Below, in pieces: positions 15,276 to 20,879 of a DNA stretch of 64,000 nt (its first letter is position 1; each line of letters starts with the position of its first letter). Source of the stretch: Helicobacteraceae bacterium (GTDB lineage Bacteria; Campylobacterota; Campylobacteria; Campylobacterales; Sulfurimonadaceae). The DNA lies in the NCBI GenBank assembly GCA_013138865.1, contig WTBY01000003.1, positions 1-64,000 on the forward strand, in the 5' to 3' direction. The position numbers were made by a program, and so were the translations under genes. The notes under the pieces were generated by a model. The model saw nothing but the letters and a program-made list of their open reading frames with translations. It was not told the origin of the DNA and did not search any database.

Positions 15276-16139
15276 TTATTTTATTAAAAAAACTGTACTG
15301 TTATCACTAAGTCCTACTAGTGAAAATTTCTTTTTATCCCACTCTTCAAAAAATAGTCCTCTGTATAGAAAGTTATTAAAGTAAAAAATGTTGCCTCCTA
15401 TAAGGTATTTATTTTTATAATTTACTAAAAAATATAGGTTATTAGTCTCATAAACTCTGTTCATAGACTTATTTCCTGTGCTGATCACTCTGTACGATTT
15501 AACATGAACTTTCTCTTTTCCATACGTTAAAACACCTTTTTCAGCATTAAAACTTACACCACCAGCAGGTAAGTGTTGTGGTTTTTTTAGATCTAGTACA
15601 AAGCCACCTTGCATACTTAACTGATCTTGTTGCGATACTTTTCCTGTGTTTATATTGTAAAGTGAAAATTCTCTTATAACATTCGCTATTTTCAGTATAT
15701 TGTCAGGTATGTAAAGAAGTGTATATTTCTCTCCCTTACACATTTTTTTCATAGGTTCACTTGATGCCGATAGATCTGAAAATAGTATTTTAGAGACTTC
15801 TCGCAAATCACTATTTGCATGACTTCCATTGTCCACAACAGGTCTCCACGATGTGTAGTATTTTAAAATATGTCCATAGTCCCACCAACTTAGCACACAA
15901 GCATTAGGAAATCTTTTGTCAAGTACTTCTAAAACCCCTACATCATTTGATCGTAGGTATTTAGGTTCAAGGTTTTTGTTTACTTCATTTATAAGTAACA
16001 TATTTACATAGAGTTGTATAGCTGTTAATAGTGCTACAATAGAAACGATTATAACTCTTTTTATAGGCAATTTTTCTAATAGAAGAAATAGTAAATATAT
16101 CGCTCCTGCATTAATAACTATACCCCCCAAAAAGTGCAA
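15276..16139 (-). CDS. pglB: PglB-like oligosaccharyltransferase, C-terminal part (out of frame)
   Basis: The C-terminal 280 residues of a PglB/STT3-type enzyme. It begins in the last membrane helices and then carries the acceptor-binding signature W85-W86-D87-Y88-G89 (numbering of this fragment), followed by 'WRPVVDNG'. In PglB the WWDYG motif contacts the Ser/Thr of the sequon. The frame opens only because of a shift at the six-C run 16123-16128; its nominal TTG start at 16139 is unlikely to be used. With one G less in the coding strand the two halves form one enzyme of about 675 residues, close to the usual 700 or so. Confidence 0.85.
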   Translation of the reverse strand: MHFLGGIVINAGAIYLLFLLLEKLPIKRVIIVSIVALLTAIQLYVNMLLINEVNKNLEPKYLRSNDVGVLEVLDKRFPNACVLSWWDYGHILKYYTSWRPVVDNGSHANSDLREVSKILFSDLSASSEPMKKMCKGEKYTLLYIPDNILKIANVIREFSLYNINTGKVSQQDQLSMQGGFVLDLKKPQHLPAGGVSFNAEKGVLTYGKEKVHVKSYRVISTGNKSMNRVYETNNLYFLVNYKNKYLIGGNIFYFNNFLYRGLFFEEWDKKKFSLVGLSDNSTVFLIK

Positions 16140-17298
16140 ACCTTAGACCTCCTAAAAATGTGCCAGCTATCGAGAGGTAGATCCAAATAAGTAAAAAGTT
16201 TAAATGTTTATACCTAATAGAGAGTAAAAGAGATCCTATAAATGATATGTAGAAAATATACTCATAGTTATTTAAAAATTTCAAAGTAGCTTTATAGTCT
16301 AATATTTTAGACTCTTGTACTGTAGCTTGTGCGTTCATAAGATAGATCTCTTTTCCATCTTTCATAGTTGCTGTTACTTTCTTGTCTAAGGTCGCATCTG
16401 TATATGATCGTATTTTAGTCTCTATATTAGTATAATTTAAGCTAGCAAATAGTAGCCCTGTAACAAGAGTAACAATTTTTAAAACTTTCAGATCTATTTT
16501 AGTCAATAACTTAGAGTTTAAAATGTAGAGTATAAAGCCAAGCCAAGCACTAATATTTATGAATACATTATAGTTTATGAGCTTGTATAGTAACATACCA
16601 AAAGCTACGAGTATGAGTGAGTCAAAATATTCATACTTTTTTTCAAACAGAGCAAACAGGACTAAAAGTCCAACTATCGGTACTATTAAGTATATACCCG
16701 CATGGTATGTTAGTAGAAGTAAAAATATACTTAGAGTTATGATCGCATCATTTAAAATGTTTTTAGTACGAAGTTTTATAATTATTGAGCTGCTAAGTGT
16801 TGCAAGAAAAAGGATAATTAACATATCTGTATCAGCGTATCCAAGGTGTGTTCTTATGTAAAACCCAAGCACACTACTTAGTAAAAGAGCGTTAAAAAAG
16901 CCTAACCAAAAGAGTCGTAGAGAATTAAAAGCCAACACAATAGGAATAACTACAAGTGAAGAGACAACAGCAGGTAAAAAGAGCATTACTTGCTCTACAC
17001 TAAAGGGGCTATACATAGTAGTGTAAGCTACTAGGTAGGCTGTTAAGTTATGGTTGATCTGTATAGACTCACCAACTATGATTTTTTTAGCTATGTCTCC
17101 GTAGTGAGCAGCGTCATCACTCCATATAGAGAGTAGTTCCCCTGCATAATATAAACTTTGATCATCTTTAACCATGTAGTACAAACTTAGCTTTATAGCT
17201 AGTGCGACTAAAAATGCCACTAAAACAAATAGGTATAGTGTCCGACCAGTTAGGTGTTGTTTGTTAAGTGTTAAAAATGATAAAAATTTAGAGTTCAT
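16111..17298 (-). CDS. pglB: PglB-like oligosaccharyltransferase, N-terminal part (frame-shifted)
   Basis: The membrane half of an STT3/PglB enzyme, which transfers a lipid-linked glycan to Asn in the periplasm. After a first helix it has the external-loop acid pair 'WSDDAAHYGD' and the 'RTHLGYADTDML' motif (conserved metal/lipid-binding acids), then about ten more helices. It runs out of frame after 'GGLRFALFGG' at the six-base homopolymer 16123-16128 and ends 'YSY'. No glycan-building pgl genes are nearby. The gene directly upstream encodes a lipoprotein with many glycosylation sequons, which is the likely acceptor. Confidence 0.85.
   Translation of the reverse strand: MNSKFLSFLTLNKQHLTGRTLYLFVLVAFLVALAIKLSLYYMVKDDQSLYYAGELLSIWSDDAAHYGDIAKKIIVGESIQINHNLTAYLVAYTTMYSPFSVEQVMLFLPAVVSSLVVIPIVLAFNSLRLFWLGFFNALLLSSVLGFYIRTHLGYADTDMLIILFLATLSSSIIIKLRTKNILNDAIITLSIFLLLLTYHAGIYLIVPIVGLLVLFALFEKKYEYFDSLILVAFGMLLYKLINYNVFINISAWLGFILYILNSKLLTKIDLKVLKIVTLVTGLLFASLNYTNIETKIRSYTDATLDKKVTATMKDGKEIYLMNAQATVQESKILDYKATLKFLNNYEYIFYISFIGSLLLSIRYKHLNFLLIWIYLSIAGTFLGGLRFALFGGYSY
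16123..16128 (-). other. Homopolymer tract at the pglB frameshift
   Basis: Six C on the + strand (six G in the coding strand), preceded in the gene by five T. Five G would restore an uninterrupted pglB frame through 'LFGGIVINAG'. The tract is short for classical phase variation (usually eight or more), so a fixed mutation or a sequencing error is equally possible. Confidence 0.6.
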
Positions 17299-17310
17299 AA
17301 AGAGAGTGCT

Positions 17311-17330
17311 GAAAGAGGAAAACCTCTTTC
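17311..17330 (-). terminator. Hairpin between lipoprotein gene and pglB
   Basis: GAAAGAGG (17311-17318) and CCTCTTTC (17323-17330) are perfect 8-bp arms around four A. On the minus strand it is followed by CTCTCTTT rather than a T-run, so it would be a weak terminator or an mRNA processing/stability element. It would lower pglB expression relative to the lipoprotein. Confidence 0.5.
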
Positions 17331-17342
17331 AAGCTAAGAAAC

Positions 17343-20015
17343 TTACTTAGTGAAGTTCATGTAAAGTGTTTTAACAGAGTTGTTTGAGTCACCAAAACCA
17401 TCTGTAGCACCAAATATAACTTTTACTTTAGTATTTGCACTTGCATTTGTGATACCAGTAGCAAAAGTTGCAGCTGTAGAATTTGCAATTGATAATTTAT
17501 AACTATCAGTTCCATTATTAGCCCATGCCATATTTAGTAAAGCAGAACCATTCCAAGATCTAAACTGTAAACTAGTTGCATTAGCAGCAACTGCTATGTA
17601 GCCTTGTGCAGCAGCCAATGTAGCATTAGCTGTAGTTGCACTTAATGCACCTGTAGAAATTGCTGAATCAGTCCAGTTTGAACTAGCAGCATAATCAGTA
17701 GCTTGTGTACCATTTTGTACAGCAACAGAAGCTATCCACATAGTTGCATTAGAAGCACCTGTAGTGTTGTCATAGTAAAACTTATCACCATCAGGATCAG
17801 TAATGTTGAAATCTTGTTCCATAACTAATGCACCATTAGTTGCCGTTCTCATCCCAGCTACAACACTTTCATCAGTAGCAGTAACATTAGCTAAACCTGT
17901 TTGTGCAGCATTTGTATTAAAACTTAATAGTGTTCCAGCAATACTAGTAAATGTAGTCGCATTTGGAACACGGTTGATCATAACAGTTACGTTTTGTTCA
18001 GTACCTGATTTTGTAAACTCATCTTTTGGAGTAATTCTAAGAACTGAGTAAGGGTGTCTTCCAGAAACAGAAGCGAAACCTGAGTTGTTACTATCAACAG
18101 TTACATAAAGTTCTCCACTAAATGAACCATTAATATCTGCAGTTCCTGTAGCATTATAACCATTACCAAGTGCTAGTAATACAGCATCTCCAGCAGTTTG
18201 ACTGATAGTAAATGTATTTAACATCTCGTTAACATCAACGTCTGTCTTAGCTAATGTAAATGTTAAGTTTGCATCTTTATTTGCAGTATCTGTACTTACA
18301 ACAACTGAACCATTATTCATATTAGTTGCAGCACTAACAGTTGCATTAGTATCAGCATTATATGCAGCACCTGCAGTAATTTTAGAGTTATAAGCTGGAG
18401 CAGTATTTACTCTAGCATTAGTTGCAGTAACACCATTTCCTCTGAAGTCAACATAGTTTTGTTTAAATAGTGAAATACCTGTTGTGCTTCCTACTGTTGA
18501 AGGTGTCATTGCGTATGCTTGACTATTAGCTACATCATATTTAAGAACTGACATATTGTTACCACTAGCATCTGTTGCTTTGAAACCTATTGTAGCATCT
18601 GCTAAATTAACAAGATCTCCTAAGTTAGAGAAGTTACCAGTACTACCGTCTTGTGATGTATGGTTTCCATCTAGTGCTACGTAAACTGCATCATATAATG
18701 AAGCAACATCAAATGTTGTTTTTGCTGTAGCACCACTTGCATCAGTTACAAGACCTGCTGCTGTTAAAGAAGCACCGGCTGCTGTTTCTAAATCAGCTAA
18801 TGTCCAAGTGTCAGTATATGAAACACCTTCATTTGATGTACTTGTTACTTTTACGCTAGTTAATGAAGTATTTGTATCTGCAGTAAACTTAACTTTAGAG
18901 TCTTGGTATCTTGTCATGTTGTAATCATTTAACTCAATAGCAATTTTAGTAGCTTTCGAGAATGGAGCTTCAACTGCTGTACCTTTTGCAACAAATTCTG
19001 CAAAGAATGTAGCTTTTGTGTTATTTAAATCAGCAGTAGCTGTTCCTGTCTCAATATAAAATGTTGCAGCTAAACCATTAGTCTGAGCATCATTATTTAA
19101 TTTGAAACCATTTTCATTGTCTGGTGCTAAGCTATTAATAGCCATGTAATTACCAGCAGCAGATTTAACTAATCTTAACGCACTAGTTGTGTCAATTGGT
19201 TGAAAGTCATTCGTGCTTGTTGTACCATTGGCAACATTGTTTACAAGAGCGTTTTCCATATCAACTGATTTTAAACTACCATCAACAATAAATGTTCTTG
19301 AAACAGCTGTAAACTGTTGTAGTTGAGTGTCAATAGCAGCAATAGCTGCTGCTTCAATATTTGCTAAATTAGCATCAAGATCTGCACCAGCTTTTTTTGT
19401 AATTAAGCTTGCTACAAAGTCTGCTGCTTTTGCACTTGAAAGTGTTCCTAAAATTGCATTCATTGCACCAAAGTCAGTACCTGCTTTAGGCTCAGTTGAT
19501 GTAAGATCAGCTTGAGTTAAACCTAGAGCTTCGGCAACTTGTTTTGTTAGAGCAGTTACATTTGCTTCATCAGAAATATTGTAGTCATTTTGATTTGACA
19601 ACATTGTGTCAGCAATTGCAGTTGAAAATGAAGTTAAGTATTTGAAACCTTTTGCTGGCATTTTATACTCTGTTGTTGTTAAATTAGCTTCATTACCAGC
19701 ATCATTAAGAATAGTAATGTACGTTTTAACACCACTTGGTTTAAGTGAAAGATAAGTAGTACCAGCTAGGTCTGTTCCAGTAGCATTTGATTCTACTACA
19801 CCACTTGCACCTAATGTGTACTGTGAATAGAGTGTACCATCAAGATTTCTACCTGTTACGTTACCATCAACAAGTTGACCCTTAACAGCTGTTGCTGTTG
19901 AAGAAACTCCTGATGTTGTTGTAGGCGTAGTTGAAGAAGAACTTCCACACCCTGCGAAACCAGCCGCAAGAATTGTTGCCGCAGCAACCGAAATTAAAGA
20001 TTTGTTTATAGTCAT
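17343..20015 (-). CDS. Large sequon-rich outer-surface lipoprotein
   Basis: An 890-residue protein with a lipoprotein signal ending F20-A-G-C23, then Ser/Thr linker and a long body rich in Ala, Thr, Asn, Asp and Ser. It is probably a surface-exposed beta-rich protein; repeated 'VKVT', 'DPDGDKFYYDNTTG' pieces recall cadherin-like or S-layer-type domains. By eye it has 16 D/E-x-N-x-S/T sequons, for example DGNVT, EANLT, DYNIS, DTNTS, DFNIT and two DSNNS. Chance would give about two. pglB follows 44 bases downstream on the same strand. AGGAG stands 5 bases before the ATG. No enzymatic motif was seen. Confidence 0.7.
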   Translation of the reverse strand: MTINKSLISVAAATILAAGFAGCGSSSSTTPTTTSGVSSTATAVKGQLVDGNVTGRNLDGTLYSQYTLGASGVVESNATGTDLAGTTYLSLKPSGVKTYITILNDAGNEANLTTTEYKMPAKGFKYLTSFSTAIADTMLSNQNDYNISDEANVTALTKQVAEALGLTQADLTSTEPKAGTDFGAMNAILGTLSSAKAADFVASLITKKAGADLDANLANIEAAAIAAIDTQLQQFTAVSRTFIVDGSLKSVDMENALVNNVANGTTSTNDFQPIDTTSALRLVKSAAGNYMAINSLAPDNENGFKLNNDAQTNGLAATFYIETGTATADLNNTKATFFAEFVAKGTAVEAPFSKATKIAIELNDYNMTRYQDSKVKFTADTNTSLTSVKVTSTSNEGVSYTDTWTLADLETAAGASLTAAGLVTDASGATAKTTFDVASLYDAVYVALDGNHTSQDGSTGNFSNLGDLVNLADATIGFKATDASGNNMSVLKYDVANSQAYAMTPSTVGSTTGISLFKQNYVDFRGNGVTATNARVNTAPAYNSKITAGAAYNADTNATVSAATNMNNGSVVVSTDTANKDANLTFTLAKTDVDVNEMLNTFTISQTAGDAVLLALGNGYNATGTADINGSFSGELYVTVDSNNSGFASVSGRHPYSVLRITPKDEFTKSGTEQNVTVMINRVPNATTFTSIAGTLLSFNTNAAQTGLANVTATDESVVAGMRTATNGALVMEQDFNITDPDGDKFYYDNTTGASNATMWIASVAVQNGTQATDYAASSNWTDSAISTGALSATTANATLAAAQGYIAVAANATSLQFRSWNGSALLNMAWANNGTDSYKLSIANSTAATFATGITNASANTKVKVIFGATDGFGDSNNSVKTLYMNFTK

Positions 20016-20192
20016 AAAGACTCCTTTTTATGTAAGATTTTGCAAATTCAAATTCGCCAAAGTCTTGTTTATAGTATTGTCATAGGTTTTGCTATGTTAC
20101 TAGTAAGAACAAAACAATGCTCAATACTCACTTTGCGAACCCATTTTAAAAGGTAAAATATAGTTTATATATAAAACCCGCGAGGACATTAT

Positions 20193-20222
20193 ACTTTACG
20201 TATAGTTATTTATACCTTAAGT
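20193..20222. promoter_or_regulatory. Operator-like inverted repeat on the lipoprotein side
   Basis: ACTTTACGTATA (20193-20204) and TATACCTTAAGT (20211-20222) form an inverted repeat around six bases. The same 12-base element occurs twice more at 20447-20479, before the regulator gene. Confidence 0.5.
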
Positions 20223-20446: not shown

Positions 20447-20479
20447 TATACGTTAAGTATAATTAGCTATACCTTAAGT
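20447..20479. promoter_or_regulatory. Operator-like direct repeat before the XRE regulator
   Basis: TATACGTTAAGT (20447-20458) and TATACCTTAAGT (20468-20479) are direct repeats 21 bases apart, two helical turns. They share the element found as an inverted repeat at 20193-20222. The regulator encoded 44 bases downstream is the likely ligand. Confidence 0.5.
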
Positions 20480-20522: not shown

Positions 20523-20879
20523 ATGGAACTTTATGAGAGAATTAACACTATACTAAAACTAAAAAAGTTAAATAAAAAAGAGTTTGCTTTAAAACTTATA
20601 GACTTATCTCCTAAGTTAAAAAGAACTGGTGAGACTCCTACACTTACCACTATTTACTCATACCTTAATGGGAATAGAGAAGTTCAAGTTGAGCTTATAA
20701 GCTATATAGCCGAAGTTTTAGACATAAGTGAACAAGAGTTATTTGAGCATAGTTCTGAACCTTATGAAGTTGAGACAGCCTCTATGCTTAAATATGCACC
20801 TAAAAGTATAGTTATGAAAATACAAGAGAAATTAGAGCCTTATAAACGAATACACGATGAGTTGGATAAAGAGATATAA
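20523..20879 (+). CDS. XRE-type DNA-binding regulator
   Basis: A 118-residue protein with an N-terminal helix-turn-helix of the Cro/C1 type (residues about 5-75; 'NKKEFALKL' and 'TIYSYLNGNREV' are the likely HTH helices) and a short helical C-terminal tail. A strong AGGAGGT stands 5-6 bases before the ATG. Upstream direct repeats suggest autoregulation, and matching repeats ahead of the sequon-rich lipoprotein suggest it also controls that gene. It is not a phage repressor with a LexA-type peptidase domain. Confidence 0.75.
   Translation: MELYERINTILKLKKLNKKEFALKLIDLSPKLKRTGETPTLTTIYSYLNGNREVQVELISYIAEVLDISEQELFEHSSEPYEVETASMLKYAPKSIVMKIQEKLEPYKRIHDELDKEI

Follow-up and report, generated by a model that had tools for sequence, protein, structure and literature searches.

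The window, which is the whole stretch of DNA analysed here (64,000 nucleotides), comes from the 3.03-Mb genome of a marine, Sulfurimonadaceae-type member of the Campylobacterota. A gene on the minus strand (17343..20015) codes for a presumed N-glycan acceptor, an exported lipoprotein of 890 amino acids recognized by its signal peptide and its number of glycosylation sequons. The N-terminus, MTINKSLISVAAATILAAGFAGC, is a signal peptide with the lipobox-like end GFAGC23, and the Cys of this end is the only one in the protein. Pfam and NCBIfam searches with the lipoprotein gave no domain above the cut-offs, no tandem repeats were found when the gene was searched for them, and an AlphaFold prediction for the protein by itself (pLDDT 33) was uninformative. 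The next gene on the same strand codes for a PglB-like oligosaccharyltransferase, as a sequence-only reading of this DNA had claimed and as domain matches bear out: the N-terminal, membrane part (16111..17298) matches STT3 (PF02516, 2.7e-14), and the C-terminal part with the WWDYG motif, which lies in another frame (15276..16139), matches STT3-PglB_core (PF21436, 2e-10). A terminator-like hairpin (17309..17332, minus strand, z -2.8) is located between the two genes. A divergent gene (20523..20879, plus strand) codes for an HTH regulator of 118 amino acids. A repeat search found two copies of a 33-bp direct repeat, at 20190..20222 and, 85% identical and near the start of the HTH gene, at 20447..20479; these are candidate operators.

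The lipoprotein contains 16 D/E-x-N-x-S/T sequons without Pro at x, spread from residue 50 to residue 876, and 35 N-x-S/T motifs in total. The sequence-only reading had counted the 16 by hand and estimated that composition would give about two. The hand count was exact on recounting, and shuffling, which had been proposed as a check, gave about 1.6 on average: the mean was 1.56 (sd 1.20, maximum 7) in 5000 shuffles and 1.58 (maximum 9) in a further 10,000, so none of 15,000 shuffled sequences exceeded 9 sequons. Judged from its sequence, the protein thus combines export with sequons beyond chance, as a bacterial N-glycoprotein acceptor should.

It could be argued that the sequons merely reflect a beta-structured surface protein rich in Asn, Asp, Thr and Ser, with turn or calcium-binding motifs, and A, T, N, S and D are indeed very abundant in the lipoprotein. 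We find this explanation very hard to believe, since the enrichment is confined to the sequon. When [DE]xXx[ST] is scored in the window lipoprotein, the numbers seen and expected are 16/1.6 for Asn, 0/1.1 for Asp, 0/1.6 for Ser, 2/2.5 for Thr and 4/2.7 for Ala; in this and two further lipoproteins of the genome (see below) the motif is about 10-fold up with Asn at X, none of the other residues tested being enriched, and in a fourth exported protein of the genome [DE]xNx[ST] is about 6-fold enriched. DxNxG, DxNxD/E, DxDxS/T, DxNxDG and calcium-loop patterns showed no enrichment in the window lipoprotein, and the calcium-loop explanation was rejected on this ground. Among the Asn residues of the window lipoprotein an acid at -2 is associated with Ser/Thr at +2 (Fisher p 4e-5), and the same association is found in the lipoprotein on contig C54 (3e-9), while N-x-S/T without the acid occurs at or below chance (19 seen against 17.1 in the window lipoprotein). 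Three E. coli K-12 adhesins that are likewise rich in N, S and T served as negative control and had no excess of sequons (seen/expected 2/3.4, 0/1.3 and 0/2.4). In a 467-kb sample of the genome, partly picked by place, the open reading frames other than the four outliers had 117 sequons against 112 expected. The specificity tests, the adhesin control and the lack of tandem repeats taken together disfavour explanations by composition or structural turns; the excess is real, specific for the sequon and far above chance.

The source genome has three STT3 genes, coding for a canonical PglB, the window PglB and a PglB on contig C16. On C16 a second sequon-rich lipoprotein gene is directly followed by an intact pglB, with a terminator-like hairpin at the equivalent place. 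The C16 lipoprotein is 914 amino acids long from the ATG and has 17 sequons (18 in the longer open reading frame) against 1.8 expected. Among 62 PglBs placed in a maximum-likelihood tree, those of the window and of C16 are sisters (100/100), even though they are only 31% identical, and they lie within an 11-member clade (100/100) apart from the canonical PglBs, which we call the second type. A third sequon-rich lipoprotein (18 sequons) is encoded on contig C54, where we looked for a pglB nearby and found none, and an exported protein of 727 amino acids with 10 sequons (C16:33420; L066:3420-5603) is not encoded beside a pglB either. The three lipoproteins are 22-28% identical and have 16-18 sequons each, of which only 3-5 are at common positions in any pair. 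That the number is kept while few positions are shared fits selection on sequon number, not place, and we infer that surface sugar density rather than particular sites would be under selection.

The window PglB is damaged in two ways. The overlap of the two frames falls on a G6 tract (16123..16128 in plus-strand coordinates, the gene being on the minus strand), where alignment places the frame break, and an in-frame loss of about 35-40 residues of the core domain relative to other PglBs is found at 15738..15776. The tblastn segments break off at 15737 and 15777, leaving the part between them uncovered, the stretch that follows the conserved SKILFS has 24 residues where the median over the 62 PglBs is 66, and the PF21436 match spans only positions 4-54 of 131 and is truncated compared to the C16 copy. 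Both the STT3 and the PglB core domain are above cut-off in the window copy, in two pieces, and in the C16 copy, in one protein; the window PglB alone lacks an intact frame and a complete core domain. In the alignments it keeps the equivalents of C. lari D56, R147, D154, D156 and E319 as well as WWDYG, and the C16 PglB likewise has these catalytic residues and WWD. The broken frame reported by the sequence-only reading is thus confirmed, but it is not the sole lesion.

The same reading suggested that glycosylation might be switchable or lost. A phase-variable pair, in which slippage at G6 turns the window PglB on and off, would explain why the break sits at this tract, and poly-G variation is plausible in the species, because the HTH gene of the sister cassette contains a G9 tract and an MBOAT acyltransferase gene is split by a G10 tract. 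G6 is nevertheless short for such a switch, and the core deletion, unique to the window copy, would not be cured by a change of frame; a switch is therefore quite improbable, and it is likelier that the window PglB has decayed. The frame break could also be an assembly error. Nor need glycosylation have been lost, since the genome has two other, intact PglBs and a glycan locus. Tracts of eight or more G are rare, only six in the 3.03-Mb genome; one of these is the G9 (L038:14992-15000) in the HTH gene close to the intact pair of lipoprotein and pglB, and the acyltransferase with the G10 (L182:1099-2593) is a candidate phase-variable glycan-modification gene.

The window HTH gene has a single paralogue in the genome, 1.1 kb beyond the C16 lipoprotein-pglB pair. 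HTH homologues are present in 34 of 228 genomes of the family, and of 20 stretches around homologues (about 251 kb) one had a sequon-rich open reading frame, so the gene was rejected as a general mark of the cassette. A search upstream of the C16 cassette did not find the operator-like repeat of the window, and sites resembling -35 and -10 were found no more often than by chance. In the sister cassette, the intact pglB and the HTH gene are separated by two near-identical copies of a small coiled-coil-like gene (L038:13715-14728) carrying in-frame 33- and 21-bp repeats.

When related genomes and GTDB contigs were scanned, second-type PglBs turned up in Sulfurovum, Nitratiruptor, Sulfurimonas, Sulfuricurvum and others. 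The window lipoprotein had no match among the GTDB contigs, which we ascribe to fast evolution of the family outside the N-terminus. In Sulfurovum sp. FS08-3, another Sulfurovum MAG and a Campylobacteraceae MAG, pglB is followed by a small exported protein and then by a lipoprotein with 6-7 sequons (0.75-1.24 expected) which resembles the window family in the N-terminal stretch only. The small exported protein carries NDNST units, four of them in tandem in the Campylobacteraceae MAG, and in Sulfurimonas NORP87 the gene directly before pglB codes for a lipoprotein with a C-terminal (SDNTT)3SDNITG. With a fixed rule that the neighbour must lie within 1.5 kb of pglB, a sequon-rich neighbour was found at 5 of 17 testable second-type loci, leaving 12 without one, and at none of 31 canonical loci. 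The pairing looked for in relatives thus has a counterpart there. It should be noted that the Fisher p of 0.004 is indicative only, because the loci are not independent (the five, among them loci of Sulfurovum, the Campylobacteraceae MAG and a Sulfurimonas, represent about three independent lineages) and because a D-N-x-S/T rule was added after the tags had been seen. Tandem sequon tags beside second-type pglB genes are found at L215:12234-12902 (the four NDNST units), L161:9561-10211, L198:7824-8477 and L210:9184-9918, and have the acid at -1, not -2. PglB-like genes akin to the second type, without the equivalent of C. lari R331, also occur outside the Campylobacterota, in Thiomicrospira microaerophila (L207) and a Spirochaetota MAG (L211).

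The sequence-only reading had noted no glycan-building genes near the window pair, and a check limited to a list of the open reading frames and to Pfam scans at selected spots showed none either. Such genes do occur on another contig, where they surround the canonical pglB (glycosyltransferases, epimerase, sugar transferase) and also lie upstream of the second pair. The claim that the adjacent PglB is the enzyme recognizing D/E-x-N-x-S/T did not find support. C. lari R331 has been proposed to bind the acidic -2 residue, even if it is not the sole determinant of -2 reading (PMC4894442). Its equivalent in the alignments is Phe in both paired PglBs, which fall in the separate clade (100/100), and is not Arg in most second-type PglBs; the canonical PglBs examined, that of the source genome among them, have Arg there. 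Yet only acidic sequons are enriched in the neighbouring lipoproteins. Either the paired PglBs would read -2 by other means or the canonical PglB would modify the lipoproteins, and the latter may well be so because it is the canonical enzyme that keeps the arginine.

A route to the outer surface is suggested by type II secretion genes. Among 60 relatives and 399 genomes of the order, homologues of the lipoprotein were weak or partial only; two of these, in G254 and G004, are sequon-rich lipoproteins encoded directly after type II secretion genes. In the source genome the canonical pglB is followed by genes resembling gspL/M/N/C, of which only the PDZ protein has a Pfam match, just under the cut-off. 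This linkage suggests delivery of the lipoprotein to the outer surface. Lipoproteins with at least 15 sequons in 587 amino acids (L165:1-1761) and with 14 in 378 (L174:9943-11079) are encoded directly after secretin, GspE and pseudopilins, and more sequon-rich small exported proteins are found close by in L174. An exported protein of another family (L176:9593-13384; 1263 amino acids, 17 sequons) is not encoded beside pglB.

With moderate confidence we propose that the lipoprotein is a heavily N-glycosylated surface acceptor belonging to a cassette of acceptor and second-type PglB, that the window PglB has decayed and that another PglB acts in its place. The lipoprotein would be an outer-surface protein selected to carry many N-glycans. 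The proposed cassette, with the acceptor gene first and the second-type pglB after it, is present twice in the source genome; read-through into pglB would probably be reduced past the terminator-like hairpin, and the divergent HTH protein perhaps exerts control. Having retained its sequons, the window acceptor most likely continues to receive glycans in the periplasm from another PglB, for which the candidates are the canonical enzyme, whose Arg fits a strictly acidic -2, and the intact sister PglB on C16. The dedicated acceptor and enzyme of the sequence-only reading survive in part: the sequon excess is real and the gene order is found again, both on C16, there with an intact enzyme, and in other genera, but that the adjacent PglB reads the motif is not supported. 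The duplicated cassette and its recurrence support a paired system, as far as gene order can tell.

Alternatively, the general pathway with the canonical PglB might simply have a rich substrate in the lipoprotein; the second-type PglB next to it would then serve another purpose or other acceptors and be there by duplication history. The canonical PglB has both the R331 equivalent and the glycan locus, the C54 lipoprotein and the C16:33420 protein are sequon-rich with no linked pglB, which also counts against the cassette reading, as do the 12 of 17 second-type loci without a sequon-rich neighbour, and elsewhere sequon-rich lipoproteins are linked to type II secretion genes instead. We consider this alternative unlikely, though worth keeping in mind, as both non-canonical PglBs of the genome directly follow a sequon-rich lipoprotein and as the linkage recurs in other genera and never at the 31 canonical loci.

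The PglBs of Campylobacter jejuni and C. lari are likewise STT3-type enzymes with all tested catalytic residues and use the D/E-x-N-x-S/T motif on exported proteins, but their known acceptors have few sites compared to the 16-18 found here, where the linked enzyme has no R331 equivalent. To our knowledge Campylobacter N-glycan acceptors are not encoded beside pglB. The example acceptors of C. hepaticus have three sites each (PMC9816155), and Desulfovibrio DvPglB has no Arg in its modelled acceptor cavity (PMC4894442). The Desulfovibrio PglBs with relaxed -2 specificity thus miss the -2-reading Arg like the paired PglBs, whereas the sequons enriched here are acidic at -2. We know of no Desulfovibrio PglB linked to an acceptor. 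HMW1 is a multi-sequon surface protein encoded beside its own cytoplasmic N-glucosylating enzyme, HMW1C. Our pair is alike in this one respect, a multi-sequon surface protein with an adjacent N-glycosylating enzyme, and no homology is claimed; HMW1C is a soluble cytoplasmic NGT, while the enzyme here is of the membrane STT3 type, which transfers preassembled glycans. N-glucosylation of the NGT type is covered elsewhere (PMC5303269, PMC6318927). PglB2 of Helicobacter pullorum and its relatives is also comparable: there, too, a canonical PglB is accompanied by a second, diverged one whose catalytic residues are intact. The passages on PglB2 in two papers (PMC6025236, PMC11164674) report all catalytic residues, no activity detected in the assays and a function that is an open question, and, in difference from our pairs, they mention no linked acceptor. 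The assays may have lacked the proper acceptor or donor.

The duplicated and recurring pair hints at a role for these poorly understood second PglBs, and a linked, sequon-packed acceptor is a concrete candidate substrate for the second-type enzymes described here. Rather tentatively, and below even odds, we suggest that the second-type PglBs of vent and sulfur-oxidizing Campylobacterota are dedicated oligosaccharyltransferases coating their own linked acceptor, separate from general N-glycosylation and following acceptor rules of their own, since most of them have no -2-reading arginine. The acceptor would be either a lipoprotein with many dispersed sequons (source genome, Sulfurovum) or an exported protein with a tandem tag, (NDNST)n or (SDNTT)n (Campylobacteraceae MAG, Sulfurimonas NORP87). 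If true, this would be bacterial N-glycosylation aimed at one protein, with a site density far above that of the Campylobacter glycoproteins compared. The natural tandem sequon tags would be of interest to glycoengineers.
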